Shown here piece by piece: positions 9,394 through 24,234 of a stretch of 24,313 nt of DNA (positions within the stretch are counted from its first letter, which is position 1; the number at the start of each line of letters is the position of its first letter). The position numbers were made by a program, and so were the translations under genes. Source of the stretch: a virus. The stretch is from IMG/VR virus record IMGVR_UViG_3300050821_002498, positions 1 to 24,313 of that record; one strand, 5' to 3'. Below the pieces are notes generated by a model that made no database searches, was not told the DNA's origin, and worked only from the letters and a program-made list of their open reading frames with translations.

Positions 9394-10277
9394 ACGAACG
9401 CCTCGGCCATAAAGGGCACGCCGTTCTGGCTGCCGTTGAGCAGCTCGGCGGCCTGGTTCGGGATGGCGAAGCCGAAACCGGGGATCGTCACCATCTCGCC
9501 CGCGCCCATCGACGGGCGCACCGCCGGGCCGTGCTGCGTGTCCCACAGGTGCTGCAGGATGATCCGCGCCGCGGTGTTGAACGCCGCCGGGACGCTCGTG
9601 CCCCACCCGGCGACGTAGACGACGGTCACCTGCGGCAGCCACTCGAAGAACGGGCCGTAGAACGGCAGGCCCAGCTTCCGGCGGATCAGCCCCGCGTTCA
9701 CGTCCAGGTCCAGGCCGGCCGAGATGTCGATCGCGCCGCCCGATGCGGAGGTGACCGAGGTCACCGAGACGAGGGGCCGCTGCCGGACCGGGATGACCGT
9801 CTGGAATGACTGCATCTCTGACCGCTCGGTGAACGCCCGGTTGACCAGCGGGCCGCCGGTCATCCGCTCGATGCAGGACTGGATCGTCGCGACGTAGCCC
9901 TGTATCTCGCTGTCGGACGCGGTGTTCGACTGGGGAATGTTCAGGCCGTCTTTCGCGTCGGACAGCGGCAGCACGGCGGTTTCGAACGGGTCGAACACGT
10001 CGAAGTCGCCGAAGCTGACGCCCGCCCCGGTGCCCGTCGCCGTCCACGTGAACTGGTAATGGCCGATGACGGCGAGGTCGGTGACCGGGATGTCCTGATG
10101 GTAGGTACCAGTGGAATCGTTGGCCGGGGTGGCGTAGGTGCCGGTGGTCAGCTGCGTGCCGTCGGCTTGGGCGATCTTTACCAGCAGCGTCAGGGCGGTC
10201 GCGTTGACCAGGGTCCCCGTGACGTCCCTGACGGTCGTGGACAGGCGGATCGGCTGGCCGGCCGGGTAGCGGCTCAA
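9390..10277 (-). CDS. Head-tail connector (gp6-like) with N-terminal Ig-like domain
   Basis: The 295-residue protein starts at TTG 10277 behind a strong AGGAGGG, five bases away; the TTG overlaps the upstream TGA (TTGA). Residues about 8-97 resemble an Ig-like or BppU-like beta domain (NDSTGTYHQDIPVTD...). Residues about 100-260 look like a gp6-like head-tail connector, helical at first (DSEIQGYVATIQSCIERMTG) and then beta (VIPVRQRPLVSVTSV), which form the ring below the portal. The fusion of the two is common in actinophages. Longer readings in this frame run into the Ala-rich repeat gene and give low-complexity Arg/Gly sequence, so they are discarded. Confidence 0.8.
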   Translation of the reverse strand: MSRYPAGQPIRLSTTVRDVTGTLVNATALTLLVKIAQADGTQLTTGTYATPANDSTGTYHQDIPVTDLAVIGHYQFTWTATGTGAGVSFGDFDVFDPFETAVLPLSDAKDGLNIPQSNTASDSEIQGYVATIQSCIERMTGGPLVNRAFTERSEMQSFQTVIPVRQRPLVSVTSVTSASGGAIDISAGLDLDVNAGLIRRKLGLPFYGPFFEWLPQVTVVYVAGWGTSVPAAFNTAARIILQHLWDTQHGPAVRPSMGAGEMVTIPGFGFAIPNQAAELLNGSQNGVPFMAEAFV

Positions 10278-12016
10278 CTGGGCCCTCCTGTCGTCTGCGT
10301 TGCGGCTGTGAGGGTGCCCTGCGCCGCCGTGGCGGCCGTGAGCGCGCCGGCGGACTGCGCGGCGGTCAGTGTGCTGCCCGGTGCCCCGGAGGCCGTCAGC
10401 GCGCCGATCGTGAACAGCGGCAGGAACTGCGCCGTCCCGGCGATAGTGAGCGCGCCCGCTGCCCCGCCCGCTGCCGCCGGTGCGGCGGTGCCCGTGAAGG
10501 CGACCGCGCCCGTTGCGGCGGCAGGTGCCCCGGCGGCGGCTGTTCCCGCCAGCGCCAGCGCGCCGGATGCGGTGACGCCGGGGCCTGTTGCCGCCGCGGT
10601 GCCGTTGAAGACGGCACTGCCCGCTGCCGCGGCCGGCGCTGACGCCGTCGCGGTCCCGGACAGGACCACGTTCGCGGCCGCGGCGGCGGCTGCTCTCGCA
10701 GTGGCGGTCCCGGACAGGAGAACGCTTCCGGCCGCGGCGGACGGTGCCGCCGCGGTGGCGGTCCCCGCGAGCGCCAGAGACCCGGTTGCAGCGGCCGGAG
10801 CCGATGCAGAGGCACTCCCGGCCACGGTGACGCTGCCCGCGGCTGCCGCGGCTCCCTTGCCTGCGGCCGACCCGGTGATGTCCAGCGCGCCCGCGGCGGT
10901 GGCGGCACCGTTGCCAGTTGCCGTGGCCGTGCCGTTGAAGATGACGCTGCCCGCGGCGGTGACCGCGCCTGCGGCGCCCGCGGTGCCAGCGACCGCCAGC
11001 GCGCCGGCGGCGGCTGCTGGTGCCTGTCCTGCTGCTGTCCCCGCCACGGCGAGGCTGCCAGTAGCCCCGGCCGCGCCCGCGGCGCCTGCTGTCCCGGCCA
11101 AGGTGACCGCAGCCGCGGCTGCCGCCGGGGCCTGCCCGGTGCCGGTCCCGCTGATGTTCAGCGCCCCGGAGGCCGCTGCGGCCGCGGCCGCGGCCGCGGC
11201 CGCGGTTCCGGTGACGTCCAGCGCTCCGGCTGCGACTGCGGGCGCCGTCGTCGCGGCAGGAGGCTGCGGAGGCGGCCATGTCCCGAACTGGCGGAACGCC
11301 ATCGGGGACTGACGGCCCGGCGGGACCGGCGCCGGCACGGTCGGTGCCACTGCTGCTGCGGCTGCGGTGAAGTCCAGCGCCCACGCAAGCCCTGAGCCCG
11401 TCACCGGGCCGGGGATGCTGACCGTGGCCGTGCCGGGTGCGCTGACGTCGACGCCCCAGCCGATACCCTGCACGGCTCCGTCTGACGGACCCGACAGTGC
11501 GTCGGAAGTCCAGTTCAGCAGGCTGGCCGGCGTCGCCGTGAACGCGGGCGTGTTAGCTGAGCTGTTGCCTGTGGCCGTAGCCGGGTAACCGTAGACAGTC
11601 GCGTCGCTGGCGTTGCCGATAGTCAGGGACGGGTTCGTGAAGCTGCCGCCGCCGGACGCGAAGCTGGTCGCCTGGCTGACCTTGTTCGCCGGCGTCGAGG
11701 ACGACAGGCCGCGCAGCACCAGAACTTCCAGCGTGCCCCACGTCGAGGCGGACAGCACGGGGGCGACGGTGGTTTCGCTGCCGGTCAGGGTCTTCGTGTA
11801 GACAATCCGGTGGTCTGATGCCGTGCCGGTGTTGTCGAGCTGCGATGCGTAGCCGGTCAGGGTGACGGTTGTAGCTGACCCGAAGAAGTCCATCGAGACG
11901 ACAGCCACGTCGCCTGCTGCGATCCCGGCAGGCATCGGGGCCACGGGCGCAGCGGTGGTGTTGAACAGCGTGCCGCCAGCGGTATGGTCCGTGGTCGCGC
12001 CGACGAAGGTAACCAC
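10274..12016 (-). CDS. Ala-rich 18-residue repeat protein with N-terminal beta domain
   Basis: The 580-residue product starts at GTG 12016 behind GGAGGGGGTGATC. Residues 1 to about 218 form a Ser/Thr/Gly-rich beta domain resembling the N-terminus of the tail-tip protein at 830-2950. Residues about 222-262 are a Pro-rich linker (PVPPG, WPPPQPP). Residues about 264-540 are about 15 repeats averaging 18 residues, pattern G(A/S)LxVxGTAxAxAPAAAA, with Gly-Thr/Ser spaced almost exactly 18 apart. The C-terminus is Thr/Ala-rich. No catalytic motif is seen. It sits in the head-tail joining region, so a head fibre, decoration or neck-whisker role is possible, and the repeats would form an extended fibrous rod. 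Function is unknown. Confidence 0.85.
   Translation of the reverse strand: MVTFVGATTDHTAGGTLFNTTAAPVAPMPAGIAAGDVAVVSMDFFGSATTVTLTGYASQLDNTGTASDHRIVYTKTLTGSETTVAPVLSASTWGTLEVLVLRGLSSSTPANKVSQATSFASGGGSFTNPSLTIGNASDATVYGYPATATGNSSANTPAFTATPASLLNWTSDALSGPSDGAVQGIGWGVDVSAPGTATVSIPGPVTGSGLAWALDFTAAAAAVAPTVPAPVPPGRQSPMAFRQFGTWPPPQPPAATTAPAVAAGALDVTGTAAAAAAAAAAASGALNISGTGTGQAPAAAAAAVTLAGTAGAAGAAGATGSLAVAGTAAGQAPAAAAGALAVAGTAGAAGAVTAAGSVIFNGTATATGNGAATAAGALDITGSAAGKGAAAAAGSVTVAGSASASAPAAATGSLALAGTATAAAPSAAAGSVLLSGTATARAAAAAAANVVLSGTATASAPAAAAGSAVFNGTAAATGPGVTASGALALAGTAAAGAPAAATGAVAFTGTAAPAAAGGAAGALTIAGTAQFLPLFTIGALTASGAPGSTLTAAQSAGALTAATAAQGTLTAATQTTGGPS
10397..11227 (-). repeat. 54-nt tandem repeat array (about 15 units) encoding the Ala-rich rod
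   Basis: Repeat starts deduced from the Gly-Thr/Ser positions (residues 270, 290, 308, 326, 344, 362, 382, 400, 418, 436, 454, 472, 491, 509, 527) are spaced 18-20 residues apart. Units differ in sequence but keep the length, so the array is old and selected, not a fresh expansion. Confidence 0.9.
11178..11205. repeat. GCGGCC simple repeat
   Basis: About 4.7 perfect copies of GCGGCC in a row encode a run of alanines at the start of the rod array. The run is self-complementary and prone to slippage. Confidence 0.9.
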
Positions 12017-19008: not shown

Positions 19009-19015
19009 TTTGACC

Positions 19016-19519
19016 ATGCCTAATGCAGCACGGCCGGTAGCTGAGCGCTTCTGGGAGAAGGTCAGCAAAGACGGTCCGGTCCCGCCCCACCGCCCCGAAC
19101 TGGGGCCGTGCTGGCTGTGGACCGGCGGCATCAACCGCCAGCGCGGCGGTTACGGGATGTTCATGCTCCGCAAAGGCGTTATCCGGCGTTCGCACCGCAT
19201 CGCGTGGGAGCTGGCTAACGAGCCGGTTCCCGGTGGGCTTTGGGTCCTGCATCACTGCGACGTGCCAGCGTGCGTTCGCCCTGAGCACCTGTTCCTCGGA
19301 ACCCCGAAGGACAACTCAGGCGACATGGAGGCCAAGGGGCGCGGCAATCACCCGCACGGCAGCGCGCGCCCGCAGGCCCGGCTGTCCGAGGCAGACGTGC
19401 TGGCCATCCGCGAAGCGCGGCAGCAGGGGGCCACGGGAGCCGAGCTAGCGCGGCAGTACGGCGTCCACCGCAGCAGCATCTACCACATCTGCCAGCGCGA
19501 CTACTGGAAGCACGCCTAG
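19016..19519 (+). CDS. HNH homing-type endonuclease with C-terminal HTH
   Basis: The 167-residue product (ATG 19016; a TTG at 19010 is an alternative) contains RSHRIAWELANEPVPGGLWV, then HHCDVPACVRPEHLFLGT and DNSGD. This is the HNH pattern with His79/His80, paired Cys81 and Cys86, His91 and Asn100. Residues about 122-165 (LSEADVLAIREARQQGATGA, then GVHRSSIYHIC) form a helix-turn-helix-like DNA-binding end, as in many free-standing phage homing endonucleases. It is oriented against the structural operon, between the 181-aa gene and the protease gene, with its own promoter. It probably cleaves a related phage genome at this site and spreads by repair. Confidence 0.9.
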   Translation: MPNAARPVAERFWEKVSKDGPVPPHRPELGPCWLWTGGINRQRGGYGMFMLRKGVIRRSHRIAWELANEPVPGGLWVLHHCDVPACVRPEHLFLGTPKDNSGDMEAKGRGNHPHGSARPQARLSEADVLAIREARQQGATGAELARQYGVHRSSIYHICQRDYWKHA

Positions 19520-19576: not shown

Positions 19577-19616
19577 GTACTGGTCAGTGGTGGACAGTAC
19601 TCGTCGGTGGCGGACA
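19577..19616. repeat. Two tandem 20-bp direct repeats upstream of the GIY-YIG-like gene
   Basis: GTACTGGTCAGTGGTGGACA and GTACTCGTCGGTGGCGGACA match at 17 of 20 positions and lie head to tail. A third, weaker copy may follow (19617-19636). This occupies part of the 180-bp non-coding stretch between the two plus-strand genes. Confidence 0.7.
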
Positions 19617-19686
19617 GTGCGGACCGGAGCGGACTGGCATGGACTCAGCGCATTCCACTGACGGGGGTGTATGCGCAGGCCGTGGC

Positions 19687-19692
19687 CATACT
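19687..19692 (+). promoter_or_regulatory. -10-like element of the GIY-YIG-like gene
   Basis: CATACT ends seven bases before the ATG at 19700, the same spacing as for the HNH and lipoprotein genes. A -35 at normal spacing is not evident. Confidence 0.35.
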
Positions 19693-19699
19693 GATCGTC

Positions 19700-20062
19700 A
19701 TGACACAACTGACGCTTCTGCCGGAACTTCCCGACAGCCCCGCTAAGACCGGCATCGTCTACCTGATGACTGACGGGCTGAAGCTGAAATGGGGCTACAC
19801 AAGCCGGGGCCTTCGCCAGCGTTCCGGCGAACTCCGCGCCCAGGTCATCGGGTTCATGTCAGGCACCCGCCAAGACGAGGCCAGGTACCACGAAATGGTG
19901 CGCCGCTGGTGCGTCGGCGGCGAATGGTTCTCGCTGCCCGACGACCCTGCGGTGCTCTACTGGCTCCAGCTCACGGTGCGAGGGCTAGCCCAGTGGCGAG
20001 GAGTCCCGGCCGATGAGGTGCTAGCCCGCATCACCGCCGCGAACATACGGCGCGCTGCCTAG
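19700..20062 (+). CDS. GIY-YIG/T5orf172-like protein
   Basis: The 120-residue product starts at ATG 19700 (MTQLTLLPELPDSPAKTGIV). It holds GIVYLMTDG and KLKWGYTSR, which align with the GIY and YIG elements of the T5orf172/MUG113 branch (usually Y-x-I and K-I-G; the second Ile is Trp here). Downstream are Arg39 or Arg41, then EARYHEMVRRWCVGGEWFSL, where Glu75 and Trp76 match the E-W-F of this family. It may be a homing or other DNA endonuclease. It points against the structural operon, beside the HNH gene, and ends three bases from the convergent gene. Earlier starts (GTG 19607, 19668) exist, but the upstream residues lie outside the domain and run through the direct repeats. Confidence 0.75.
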   Translation: MTQLTLLPELPDSPAKTGIVYLMTDGLKLKWGYTSRGLRQRSGELRAQVIGFMSGTRQDEARYHEMVRRWCVGGEWFSLPDDPAVLYWLQLTVRGLAQWRGVPADEVLARITAANIRRAA

Positions 20063-20065
20063 CTA

Positions 20066-20611
20066 TCAGAGCTTCGCCGCCTGCGCGTCGAGCGCCGTCG
20101 CCTGCGACAGCAGGCCGCTGATCTGCGTCCGCAGCCCGGCGATCCGGGTCTTCAGCGACGCGTGCTTGACCGCCGCCTTCCGGTGGGCCTTGTGCGCCAC
20201 CGCCGCGTGGTGCTTCACCGCGGGCACCGCCCCGGGGTGCTTCGCCGCCGCGGCCGCCGCCTTGGCCGCCGCCGTGGCCTTCTTCGCCGCCGCGAGCGCC
20301 GCCGCCTCCTGCTTCAGGAGCGCGTTCAGCTGCCCCTGCAGGACGTGCGCCCTGGCCCGGTCCGCCTTCGCCTTCGACTGCAGGGCTGCCTTGCGGGCCG
20401 CCGGGCTGTTCGCGACGTGGGCCATGTGGGCGACGTGGGCGACGTGGGCCGCGTGTGCCTTCGCGGCCGCGCTGCCGCCGCCGGAGCCCCCTCCGCCGCC
20501 GCTTGAGAACTGGCCGCCGGCGGCGCTTCCCGCCGGGGCGTGGTTCATGTTGAACCGCTGCGCGCCCGCCGACCACCGCGACGCCCACGATGCCGCCCAC
20601 GTATCAGGCAT
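20066..20611 (-). CDS. His/Ala/Lys-rich coiled protein after the portal, 181 aa
   Basis: The start is ATG 20611, overlapping the portal stop by eight bases. The first part has NMNHAPAGSAAGGQFSSGGG, a motif often found at the front of actinophage virion proteins next to the portal. A Gly-rich linker is followed by AHAAHVAHVAHMAHVA (a His-Val-Ala triplet repeat) and long Ala/Lys-rich helices (AALAAAKKATAAAKAAAAAA). The C-terminus (SLKTRIAGLRTQISGLLSQA) looks like a coiled coil. It is basic overall and could be a scaffold, a DNA-interacting internal protein or a portal-associated factor. No firm family assignment. Its DNA includes 9-bp direct repeats. Confidence 0.75.
   Translation of the reverse strand: MPDTWAASWASRWSAGAQRFNMNHAPAGSAAGGQFSSGGGGGSGGGSAAAKAHAAHVAHVAHMAHVANSPAARKAALQSKAKADRARAHVLQGQLNALLKQEAAALAAAKKATAAAKAAAAAAKHPGAVPAVKHHAAVAHKAHRKAAVKHASLKTRIAGLRTQISGLLSQATALDAQAAKL
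20412..20458 (-). repeat. 9-bp direct repeats encoding His-Val-Ala triplets
   Basis: Tandem copies of a GACGTGGGC-type 9-mer (plus strand) encode the repeated Ala-His-Val triplets of the post-portal protein. Confidence 0.8.
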
Positions 20612-22031
20612 GACCGGCTCCGTTCAGCGCCCGCCGCGCCGCCGTCGCCACCGGCACGGGCCGCGTCGAGTTCCCGCCGTCACCGGGGCTGGTCGATCCG
20701 GTCGGCAGGCGCGGCGTAGACGGCGGCAGCGGGTCGGCGGTCGCGCCCGGCGACGTCTGCGGCAGCATGTGCTGCACGTTCCCGGTCGGCACCGGCGGCG
20801 GGGCCGCCGCCGGCTTCAGCAGCGACACGTCCCCGGCCTGGACCGCCGCGACCGCCGACATCTTGTCGTAGCCCGCCTGCTGGTACGCCAGCAGCGCCTG
20901 CCCGTGGATCAGGGCGACCTGCGCGCGGACCTGCTCGCCCTGCTGCAGCGCCGCTATCGCGCCGGTGTCGTACCACAGCCGCGCCCCCGCCGGAACGTCC
21001 GCGACCAGTTCCTCCAGCGCCGCGCACATCGACCGCCACAGCGACCGCAGCGTCAGGTCCGCGAACCGGCGGATGACGTCCTCGTACGACTTGCCCGCGC
21101 CCTTGATCGACTCCAGGCCGATCAGCAGCGCCGGGACGCCCGACGGGGCGAGGATCCGCTGCACGCCGTCGACGGACACGTTGCTGAAGTCCATCTGCGA
21201 CAGGCTGTTCCCGGCCAGCGTCAGGTCAGCGCCCTGGTCCAGGACCAGGGTCTTGCCCGCGTTGTCCGGGCCGCCGTACCGGGCCGTCATCCGGTCGCGG
21301 ATCGCGTCGATCGTCGCGGGCTGCAGTTTCTGCGCGTACTTGATGATGATGTTGGGCGTGGCGTTATTGGACAAGTACCTGATCTTGTACCTGGTCATCG
21401 CGTCGTCGGCGGTCACGTCCCGCATCACCGGCGTGAGCCAGCTCATGCCCCGGAAGTCCGCCGCCGGGTCGGGGATCGGGTGCCAGTGCGCGACCTCGTC
21501 GGCCGGGGCCATGAACGGCGCGCCGTGACCGGTTACGCCCTGCGGCGGCTGGTGCCAGTAGCCGACCTTCTGCCGGTAGCTGCCGCCGCCCGGCACGCTG
21601 ACCAGCTCGGAGACGATCGTGACCCAGTCGGGCCGCAGCCGCACCAGCGGCGCGTCAGCGTCCGGGGTGCTCCAGATGTAGGCGTTGCCCGCCAGCGACG
21701 CGTCCTGCTCCATCCGGGCGATCAGCTCGCCCGACGTCGACCCGGGCCCGAACGGGCGCTCCAGCGCCGCCAGCGTCTGGTTGCCGAACAGGTGCTTGTC
21801 GTCTTTTGCCTGGAACTGGAACTGCGCCTCGGCCAGCAGCATCATCCGCACGAGGATCGCGCTGAACACCGGGGAGTCCGACGCGTTGACCTGCTGCGCC
21901 CAGCCCGCGAGCTGCGGCAGCACCGCCTCCCGGTCCGGGCTGCCGTAGGAACTCGTCAGGACCGCCGCGCCGCTGGCCTGTCCCTCCCAGTAGCCCGCGT
22001 CCCGGCGGACCAGCCGGTCAAGCAGCCTCAC
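20604..22031 (-). CDS. Portal protein (HK97-type)
   Basis: The 475-residue protein starts at GTG 22031, overlapping the upstream stop (GTGA). It resembles actinophage HK97-type portals. The N-terminus (MRLLDRLVRRDAGYWEG) is followed by a long helix area and FRGMSWLTPVMRDVTADD, a portal landmark just before YLSNNATPN. Later it has DFSNVSVDGVQRILAPSGVP and RSLWRSMCAALEELV. The C-terminal 70 residues are Pro/Ser/Thr-rich, probably the disordered end. The portal forms the 12-fold ring through which DNA is packaged, and it docks the terminase and the connector. Its place just after the terminase and membrane-protein genes is standard. Confidence 0.95.
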   Translation of the reverse strand: MRLLDRLVRRDAGYWEGQASGAAVLTSSYGSPDREAVLPQLAGWAQQVNASDSPVFSAILVRMMLLAEAQFQFQAKDDKHLFGNQTLAALERPFGPGSTSGELIARMEQDASLAGNAYIWSTPDADAPLVRLRPDWVTIVSELVSVPGGGSYRQKVGYWHQPPQGVTGHGAPFMAPADEVAHWHPIPDPAADFRGMSWLTPVMRDVTADDAMTRYKIRYLSNNATPNIIIKYAQKLQPATIDAIRDRMTARYGGPDNAGKTLVLDQGADLTLAGNSLSQMDFSNVSVDGVQRILAPSGVPALLIGLESIKGAGKSYEDVIRRFADLTLRSLWRSMCAALEELVADVPAGARLWYDTGAIAALQQGEQVRAQVALIHGQALLAYQQAGYDKMSAVAAVQAGDVSLLKPAAAPPPVPTGNVQHMLPQTSPGATADPLPPSTPRLPTGSTSPGDGGNSTRPVPVATAARRALNGAGHA

Positions 22032-22319: not shown

Positions 22320-22826
22320 TCAGATCTGCCACACGCCCGGCGTGGCCAGTTCTTCCCAGCGCAGGAACGCCCAGACCGCCAGCGTCGCCGCGACCAGCGG
22401 CCCCTGATCGACCGCCACCTTCGGGTCCCACGCCTGCGCCCCGGCCAGCTTGCGCTGCTGCCCGGCGCGGACCGCGTTCGTCAGCGGCGGCTGGTCAAGG
22501 TGCTCAAGTCCCCCGTCGTTCACCAGGTCCAGGAACTGCCCGTGCGCGACCGCGACGTCCTCCGCATCCGGGAGCACCGCGATGATGCCCGCCGTCTTCA
22601 GCGGCTCCACCAGCGTCCCCGACTGCGCCTTCGCGTTCACCACCACGGCCACCGGGTCATGCTTCACGTACAGCGCAGACAGGGCCGCCGTGACGCCGCG
22701 CGGGTGACCGTAGTACGGCGACAGGTCGACCAGCACCTTCCCCGTCGCGCCGCGTCCCGCCGCCACCACCGACGCGACCTTCCGGTCCTCGCTGATCGCG
22801 ACACCGAAGGCGACTTCCCCGCTCAC
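22320..22826 (-). CDS. Large terminase nuclease domain as a separate ORF
   Basis: The 168-residue ORF, from GTG 22826, overlaps the ATPase ORF stop as GTGA; its frame is -1 relative to that ORF. It resembles the RNase-H-like nuclease half of phage large terminases: VAFGVAISEDRKVASVVAAG, then KHDPVAVVVNAKAQSGTLVE, then AWDPKVAVDQGPLVAATLAV. In related terminases three acidic residues bind metal. Here the first position is Ala10 and the second Asn64; only Asp140 remains. So it is either a true split with an altered active site, or a frame break in one gene, or a sequencing error. The frame is open up to 22859 but that extension is antisense-like. Confidence 0.75.
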   Translation of the reverse strand: MSGEVAFGVAISEDRKVASVVAAGRGATGKVLVDLSPYYGHPRGVTAALSALYVKHDPVAVVVNAKAQSGTLVEPLKTAGIIAVLPDAEDVAVAHGQFLDLVNDGGLEHLDQPPLTNAVRAGQQRKLAGAQAWDPKVAVDQGPLVAATLAVWAFLRWEELATPGVWQI

Positions 22827-23761
22827 AGCAGGCCGCCCTGAGCCGCCGACGCGCCCCACGTGTCCTCGGCGATGACACCCCAGCCGGGTTTTGCCACCTC
22901 AGGCCATTGGCAAAGATAGGCGCGCCGGAACTCCGGCAGCTCCATCAGCCCGTAGTCCGTCGCCACCGTCTCCTCCGACACCGTGATGCCCAGCGCAGGC
23001 ATGCACGCACGCCACGTCGCCGGGTCGGCCGGGTCGGCGTCATCAGGTGCGCTGTAACCGACATAGCACCCGTCCGAGGTCACGCCCATCTCGGCGCGCG
23101 TCCGGCCGTCCTCGACCTTCCCGCGGAAGTACGAGGACTTCTCCGTGCCCGCCGCCGACACCACCCACAGCTGCGCGTCCCGCGTCATCATCGCCGGGCG
23201 CATCGCCTGCTCAAGGTGGTCGTCCTGCTGCGCCCACGCCTCGTCGATCACGCCCAGGTCCAGGTTGTCACCGTGACCGCTCGTCTGCGTGTTGCTCACC
23301 AGGCCCAGCAGCGACCCGTTCCTGAACACCAGCGCCTCAGACCCCGAGCCCTTGCGGACGTCGATGAACGGCGCCAGCTTGCTCGCCTGGATCCGCGGCC
23401 ACCACACGTCAAGCAGCCGGTGCCGCGCGTCGAGCCGCGTCTGCGCCGTGTACGCGATCTGCGTCCCCGGCCGCCGCAGGCCCCGCGCGATCATCATCGA
23501 CAGCAGGTCGACGCTCTTGCCCTGCTGCCGCATCACCTCGATCACGACCTGCCGGAACGCGAAACGGCCGTCCGCGCCCAGCTCCGTCGTGACCTCGTTC
23601 ACCTCCTGCTGCCACGGCATCAGCCCCGGCCCCGCCAGCGTGCGGAAGTTCAGCAGCTCCGCCGTCCGCGCGATCCCAGCCGCCAGGTTCGCCCGCCCCG
23701 GCGTCGCCGGGGTCGCGAACCTAGGCCTGCAGGGCGCTGAACAGCCCCGTGAGGTCGGCAT
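22823..23761 (-). CDS. Large terminase ATPase domain
   Basis: The 312-residue ORF starts at ATG 23761, 41 bases inside the small terminase gene; no other start lies close. It holds a Walker A-like RQQGKS (residues 78-83), a Walker B LGVIDEA (169-175) and the coupling motif SAAGT (202-206), all in order and intact. It ends at 22823 just after WGVIAEDTW, where full-length terminases continue into the nuclease half. The packaging motor drives DNA into the prohead through the portal. The nuclease half is the next ORF in the -1 frame. Confidence 0.9.
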   Translation of the reverse strand: MPTSRGCSAPCRPRFATPATPGRANLAAGIARTAELLNFRTLAGPGLMPWQQEVNEVTTELGADGRFAFRQVVIEVMRQQGKSVDLLSMMIARGLRRPGTQIAYTAQTRLDARHRLLDVWWPRIQASKLAPFIDVRKGSGSEALVFRNGSLLGLVSNTQTSGHGDNLDLGVIDEAWAQQDDHLEQAMRPAMMTRDAQLWVVSAAGTEKSSYFRGKVEDGRTRAEMGVTSDGCYVGYSAPDDADPADPATWRACMPALGITVSEETVATDYGLMELPEFRRAYLCQWPEVAKPGWGVIAEDTWGASAAQGGLL

Positions 23762-24050
23762 CGGGCTTCCCGCTCGCCTTCGGCATCAGCTCAGCCAGCG
23801 TCATCCGCAGTTCCCGCGCCAGCGGCGCGTTCGACGGGTCAGCGCGGTGCGCCTCCGCCATCCGGGCAGCCAGCTGCCGCATCTCCGCCGCCGCGTCGAA
23901 CTTCGCCTCAGGCGCGGGAGCGGGAGTGATCGAGATCAGGCGCGGCGGAACGGCCTCGCCGCGGAGCGCGGCGCACCTCCGGCACAGCGAATGATCACCC
24001 GCAGCGTGTGCCCGCGCACGGCGGACACGGAGGGCCCCCGAATCCGCCAA
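23721..24050 (-). CDS. Small-terminase-like protein with Cys pair, 109 aa
   Basis: The predicted start is TTG 24050, about eleven bases after AAGGAG; the frame opens further upstream, but that part overlaps the preceding gene and is low-quality. The product reads MADSGALRVRRARAHAAGDH, then SLCRRCAALRGE, a basic N-terminus with a CxxC, followed by a helical C-terminal half (AAEMRQLAARMAEAHRADP) ending LTGLFSALQA. Small proteins with an N-terminal H-x-x-GDHSLC motif lie just upstream of the large terminase in many actinophages and are thought to act in DNA recognition. No zinc site is proven, as only two Cys are seen. Confidence 0.75.
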   Translation of the reverse strand: MADSGALRVRRARAHAAGDHSLCRRCAALRGEAVPPRLISITPAPAPEAKFDAAAEMRQLAARMAEAHRADPSNAPLARELRMTLAELMPKASGKPDADLTGLFSALQA

Positions 24051-24054
24051 GGGG

Positions 24055-24234
24055 TCACTGCTCCTTCGTCGCGTACTCGCGGACGTTCGCCAGCGGGATA
24101 TGCCGGTCAGGCTTGCCGCTGTGCATCCGCATCGTGATGTGCAGCACACCGTCCTTCGAGCTGGCGCTGTACCCCTCGATGATTTCCTCCGTGCCGTCCA
24201 TCCAGGTGACGGTCACCCTGACGTCGCCGATCAC
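24055..24234 (-). CDS. Small leading protein of the late operon, 59 aa
   Basis: A 59-residue frame starts at GTG 24234 behind GGAGGG (about twelve bases upstream). It reads MIGDVRVTVTWMDGTEEIIE, then GYSASSKDGVLHITMRMHSG and ends EYATKE. It looks like a single beta-sheet protein and has phage-like composition. No family is recognised. It ends at 24055, inside the leader of the small terminase gene, so both are probably on one message. Confidence 0.7.
   Translation of the reverse strand: MIGDVRVTVTWMDGTEEIIEGYSASSKDGVLHITMRMHSGKPDRHIPLANVREYATKEQ

Follow-up and report, generated by a model that had tools for sequence, protein, structure and literature searches.

A two-gene large terminase with a probably inactive nuclease subunit in a clade of actinobacterial phages

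Introduction

As a rule, a single chain of the large terminase (TerL) carries out both translocation and cutting. In the window studied here, i.e. the whole 24,313-nt stretch of DNA of IMG/VR virus record IMGVR_UViG_3300050821_002498, no single-chain TerL is encoded, and its ATPase and nuclease domains lie in two consecutive genes. How are the two halves made, and is the second of them still a nuclease? The original prediction, drawn from the sequence alone, left three options for the break: the domains are made separately, they are joined by a -1 frameshift, or the gene is broken or misassembled. It also presumed a working nuclease. Its premise that large terminases are normally one chain is true in general, but a split has already been reported, as most Arthrobacter cluster AY phages have separate ATPase and nuclease terminase genes (PMC11920828, PMC12820723).

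Results

The ATPase ORF matched the terminase large subunit family PHROG 9 at 1.6e-36 (profile positions 78-471) and scored 28.0 bits against the Pfam family TerL_ATPase (PF03354), above the curated cut-off of 23.7. Together with Walker A, Walker B and coupling motifs, this identifies it as an HK97-like TerL ATPase. These motifs had been predicted to be intact, and all three were indeed found, with R78, Q79, G81, K82, D173 and E174 invariant in an alignment of 26 sequences (A2). Its structural model (pLDDT 83.4) matched HK97 TerL with a Z score of 26.6 over the ATPase core and lid, and was of low confidence past residue ~290, that is, over the last ~20 residues. The nuclease ORF matched PHROG 9 at 3.2e-6 over profile positions 555-668, consecutive to the part matched by the ATPase. 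Its AlphaFold model (pLDDT 88.7, from 73 sequences) aligned with residues 292-483 of the HK97 TerL nuclease domain at Z 13.5 and with the G20c nuclease at Z 13.1, and also matched the nuclease domains of T4, D6E and Sf6; the predicted fold is that of a TerL nuclease domain (RNase H/RuvC-like). Since a sequence search of the PDB with the nuclease profile (A1) found no TerL, the link between this ORF and TerL was drawn from structure and from fused homologues. An NCBIfam search gave no match for either protein. Because the ATPase model ends in a low-confidence tail and the match of the nuclease model to HK97 begins at residue 292, the modelled gene border is the inter-domain linker; the proposal that the ATPase stops at the domain boundary thus agrees with the models, which split HK97 TerL at this point.

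The layout of the locus is given in Table 1. The nuclease ORF is in frame -1 relative to the ATPase ORF, and its GTG start overlaps the ATPase stop as GTGA, so that four bases are common to both; these ORF coordinates and the total of 480 residues (312 + 168) are as first described. The portal ORF starts in the same manner, inside the stop of the preceding small ORF (22028-22031). Profile searches of the PHROG, Pfam and NCBIfam type gave no family match for the candidate small terminase. Elsewhere in the window, the tail-gene region holds a 580-aa ORF (10274-12016, minus strand), the middle of which is a long Ala/Gly/Thr-rich repeat.

Table 1. Coordinates of terminase-related features in the window and of the single-chain TerLs of four cultured phages
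Feature	Sequence	Position	Strand	Remarks
Small terminase candidate (from its position alone), ORF upstream	window	23721..24149	-	overlaps ATPase start
TerL ATPase ORF, core + lid	window	22823..23761	-	312 aa, ATG..TGA
Walker A RQQGKS, ATPase residues 78-83	window	23513..23530	-	R, Q, G, K invariant in alignment A2
Walker B LGVIDE, ATPase residues 169-174	window	23240..23257	-	D, E invariant in A2
Coupling motif SAAGT, ATPase residues 202-206	window	23144..23158	-	S, A, G nearly invariant in A2
Stop/start overlap GTGA	window	22823..22826	-	seen in the sequence
Separate TerL nuclease-fold ORF	window	22320..22826	-	168 aa, GTG start
Nuclease motif I, Ala10 (HK97: catalytic D302)	window	22797..22799	-	HMM alignment to 6z6d; strand beta1
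Nuclease motif II, Asn64 (canonical Asp)	window	22635..22637	-	position directly after strand beta4
Nuclease motif III, Asp140 kept	window	22407..22409	-	just before last helix; nearly invariant in A1
Portal protein, same operon, downstream	window	20604..22031	-	Pfam Phage_portal 4.8e-31
RRH1 TerL, cultured, one chain	L127	655-1965		A at motif I
Schiebs TerL, cultured, one chain	L129	487-1824		A at motif I
PantheRoc TerL, cultured, one chain	L131	318-1901		N at motif II, no acid at motif III
Mbo4 TerL, cultured, one chain	L133	442-1950		N at motif II, no acid at motif III

Two scans of IMG/VR found relatives on ~110 contigs, which by their accession prefixes come from more than 70 metagenome accessions. 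The gene was split in 77 of the 80 distinct loci with both parts: the parts overlapped in 52, were separated by a gap in 25 and were fused in 3. Most overlaps were GTGA, with ATGA, GTAA or CTGA variants in other overlapping relatives. The three fused loci (L057, L058, L062) are distant, with nucleases only 36-40% identical. An Actinomycetota MAG contig carried the same GTGA split and an A-N-D nuclease (see below for this notation), and in a draw of 395 genomes from the class of that MAG, the other genomes with a related nuclease (n = 24) were all fused, meaning that the nuclease lay inside a long open frame, no shorter than 474 aa. Since close relatives are split, and fusion is seen only in distant ones and in these 24 class genomes, the gene was most likely split near the base of the clade and has stayed so. 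This is the opposite of a situation in which all close relatives have an unbroken gene. In two distant loci (L059, 4644-4898; L066, 4894-5148) there were 253 nt between the aligned parts, yet the nuclease frame continued without a stop far into the ATPase ORF.

Several observations bear on whether the halves are independent genes. In the closest relatives (L003, L071; ATPase 89%, nuclease 90-92% identical), the genes are 184 nt apart. At least one nuclease-frame stop follows the ATPase stop in 22 of the 25 gapped loci, these two included. An N6/N4 DNA methylase gene (L038, 1092-1784) and an endonuclease VII gene (L035, 1907-2575) are each inserted exactly between the ATPase and nuclease genes; a further insert (L045, between 1271 and 1604) is antisense and by eye resembles an HTH repressor, and short ORFs are also among the inserts. 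Nucleases of the same family as that of the window also occur behind ATPases only 27-41% identical to that of the window (L089, L094, L101, L104, L110, L112, L114, L115, L117), and in these loci sequence similarity returns within ~15 residues of the end of the ATPase ORF, i.e. at the gene border. Conversely, one locus (L002) combines an ATPase 91% identical to that of the window with a nuclease of the different, EDD type. These sequence comparisons showed independent exchange of the ATPase and nuclease genes. When the window was compared with the four relatives closest to it, the nuclease had a dN/dS of 0.19-0.25 and the ATPase one of 0.28-0.30, and by this measure both ORFs are under purifying selection.

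Given the inserts, the in-frame stops, the ATPase swaps and the lack of a conserved slippery site, the best reading of the split is two proteins made by coupled translation. Of the options named at the outset, separately made domains are thus supported, and the others were rejected. A single chain, made by programmed -1 frameshifting of the ribosome at the junction, would fit the -1 frame relation of the overlaps and the nuclease frame of the window, which has no stop in the 76 nt before the ATPase stop. However, the frame relation is an automatic consequence of a GTGA overlap, the 22 relatives with intervening stops could not be joined by one shift, and a slippery heptamer is absent in frame from the window and present in only 8 of 46 overlapping loci, so that the overlap has no conserved one. 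A required frameshift is therefore very unlikely, although a low level of frameshifting at the GTGA junction of the window would be compatible with the sequence by itself. A Shine-Dalgarno motif before the nuclease GTG gave no signal (27 of 46 loci, against 25 in shuffles). A split seen in a single record whose window is a 24.3 kb fragment might be suspected to stem from faulty sequencing or assembly, or from decay of the gene in a defective prophage. This can be practically dismissed, as the search for relatives with the same break, called for by the original prediction, found the identical site in more than 70 separately assembled metagenomes, both halves have low dN/dS, and fused forms occur only among distant relatives.

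We then located the catalytic residues of the nuclease. The motif I column was set by aligning a profile of fused TerLs to HK97 D302 (chain index 312 less a 10-residue tag), and the motif II and III columns by homologous columns together with the secondary structure of the model; the catalytic residues of HK97 TerL are D302, D388 and D471 (PMC9410871). The triad of the window nuclease is A10, N64 and D140, i.e. two of three catalytic positions are non-acidic and the three carboxylates of an active TerL nuclease are not present. In the model the residues occupy the usual triad places, A10 in strand beta1 (residues 6-11), N64 immediately following strand beta4 (residues 60-63) and D140 shortly ahead of the final helix (residues 142-161), with motif III as the least certain column, since HMMER places HK97 D471 two positions after D140. 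Among 82 distinct nucleases, that of the window included, 46 were A-N-D and 24 E-D-D (three of these fused); the remainder were A-D-D (3), Q-D-D (2), E-T (2) and A-Y-D, H-N-D and E-D-E (1 each), and 2 rows were incomplete. The E-D-D triad belongs to fused and more distant split members. Motif II is D in E-D-D relatives and in most fused TerLs, and fused prophage TerLs are mostly D-D-D. A nuclease ORF with Tyr at motif II (A-Y-D; L022, 4933-5856) has ~140 additional residues at the C-terminal end (308 aa in all). On a tree from which the two columns were left out, A-N-D required only 3-4 changes, which argues against many independent events in which motifs I and II changed together; A-N-D appears to be essentially one lineage, arisen once or very few times.

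In G20c TerL, the mutants D294N, D347N and D429N had the lowest nuclease activity, and the residues were called indispensable (PMC5389553). As two canonical acids are missing in the window and such Asn mutants are the least active, its nuclease subunit probably does not cut DNA; A10 and N64 thus argue against the working nuclease presumed earlier. A somewhat unlikely alternative is that the nuclease, still as one of two separate chains, is active via residues outside the canonical triad. In its favour, D140, H95 and D100 are retained, the search for a dedicated replacement nuclease gave none, and viable cultured phages have TerLs without individual acids: RRH1, Schiebs, PantheRoc and Mbo4, all plaque-forming actinophages, lack one or two canonical acids (Table 1). 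In view of these phages the inactivity is something we infer, and a non-canonical site is possible. Against such a site, two of three metal ligands are gone, a single Asn at the equivalent G20c positions suffices for the lowest activity, and Ala and Asn are retained nearly without exception in the A-N-D clade, which resembles a fixed loss. It is improbable, and clearly more so, that the split nuclease serves outside packaging, for example in DNA binding or regulation, with the ATPase packaging without a nuclease domain. Its separate coding and its exchange independently of the ATPase would allow this, but it lies directly downstream of the TerL ATPase in every examined locus that reaches far enough, and it retains the TerL nuclease fold.

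We also searched for an enzyme that might cut instead. HK97 cos cleavage is stimulated by the HNH endonuclease gp74 (PMC9410871). A dedicated HNH partner of this style was rejected, since HNH and HNH_3 matches were scattered and not tied to A-N-D, and so was endonuclease VII, which occurred in 13 of 24 records across both classes and is thus not specific. A comparison of gene content between 18 A-N-D and 6 E-D-D contigs revealed no A-N-D-specific gene, the top matches resembling antisense shadow ORFs, and a second copy of the nuclease domain was absent from 18 of 18 A-N-D contigs. Many contigs are fragments, so the absence of a cutter gene is weak evidence. The window itself carries an HNH_3 endonuclease gene with an HTH tail (19010-19519, plus strand; Pfam 3.9e-12). 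This gene lies between the protease and ORF 20066-20611, runs opposite to the head operon and is homing-type by family resemblance. In the adjoining ORF (19607-20062, plus strand), which had no Pfam or NCBIfam match, the stretch KTGIVYLMTDGLKLKWGYTSRGLRQRSGEL recalls T5orf172/GIY-YIG-like nucleases by eye.

Discussion

Our results make it likely that the window comes from a tailed actinobacterial phage and encodes its packaging ATPase, the TerL gene having undergone stable fission, with a nuclease subunit that is probably dead. Two polypeptides would be made, one with the ATPase core and lid and one with the RNase H-fold domain, both arising from coupled termination and re-initiation at GTGA. 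Assuming that they form a complex, the two chains would bind each other and presumably come together again on the portal, where ten chains (5+5) would correspond to a TerL pentamer. By analogy with the vestigial domain of phi29, the nuclease subunit of the window may keep a structural, DNA- and portal-contacting role, and the genome would be cut by another enzyme, or cutting would not be needed.

Known systems share some of these features. HK97 TerL (PDB 6z6d, PMC9410871), the closest solved structure to both halves, has the same order of ATPase and nuclease, but is one chain with catalytic D302, D388 and D471. The fused TerLs of actinobacterial prophages and phages (for example L198-L208, Keelan and Neville) share homology in the nuclease domain (hmmsearch E values as low as 4e-33), but are single chains with open frames of at least 474 aa and are mostly D-D-D. 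As in the window, the Arthrobacter cluster AY phage BillyTP (PP978841) has consecutive ATPase and nuclease genes with a short out-of-frame overlap; this overlap is 17 nt rather than GTGA, and by eye the BillyTP nuclease appears to keep three Asp motifs, whereas that of the window does not. BLASTP found no significant similarity between BillyTP proteins and either window protein, and thus no sequence kinship with cluster AY. In phi29, gp16 has a vestigial RNase H fold that derives from TerL, lacks the catalytic acids and is retained for DNA binding (PMC7672431). It is a precedent for how the window nuclease may work, with no sequence kinship shown, and differs in being fused to the ATPase, in its reduced fold and in unit-length packaging with pRNA. 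A partial literature search found no papers on split terminases beyond cluster AY, and no report of a split TerL combined with loss of catalytic acids. The split itself is not new; the new part, and the more surprising feature, is the degenerate A-N-D nuclease.

For the family as a whole, we tentatively propose a widespread clade of actinobacterial phages with a two-subunit motor, in which a catalytically dead, separately encoded nuclease subunit would be kept under purifying selection as a structural ring for translocation or portal docking, cutting being done by a different enzyme or abolished by unit-length replication. DNA cutting by RRH1, Schiebs, PantheRoc and Mbo4 may merit its own study. 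The two-gene TerL, the re-pairing of ATPases and the lost ligands make it possible to ask directly how the nuclease domain contributes to translocation apart from cutting, and the same family lets one ask which enzyme makes the genome ends. In summary, a large group of uncultured actinobacterial phages has a two-gene motor, and as most of them have lost two of the three catalytic residues, they raise the question of how their DNA is cut.
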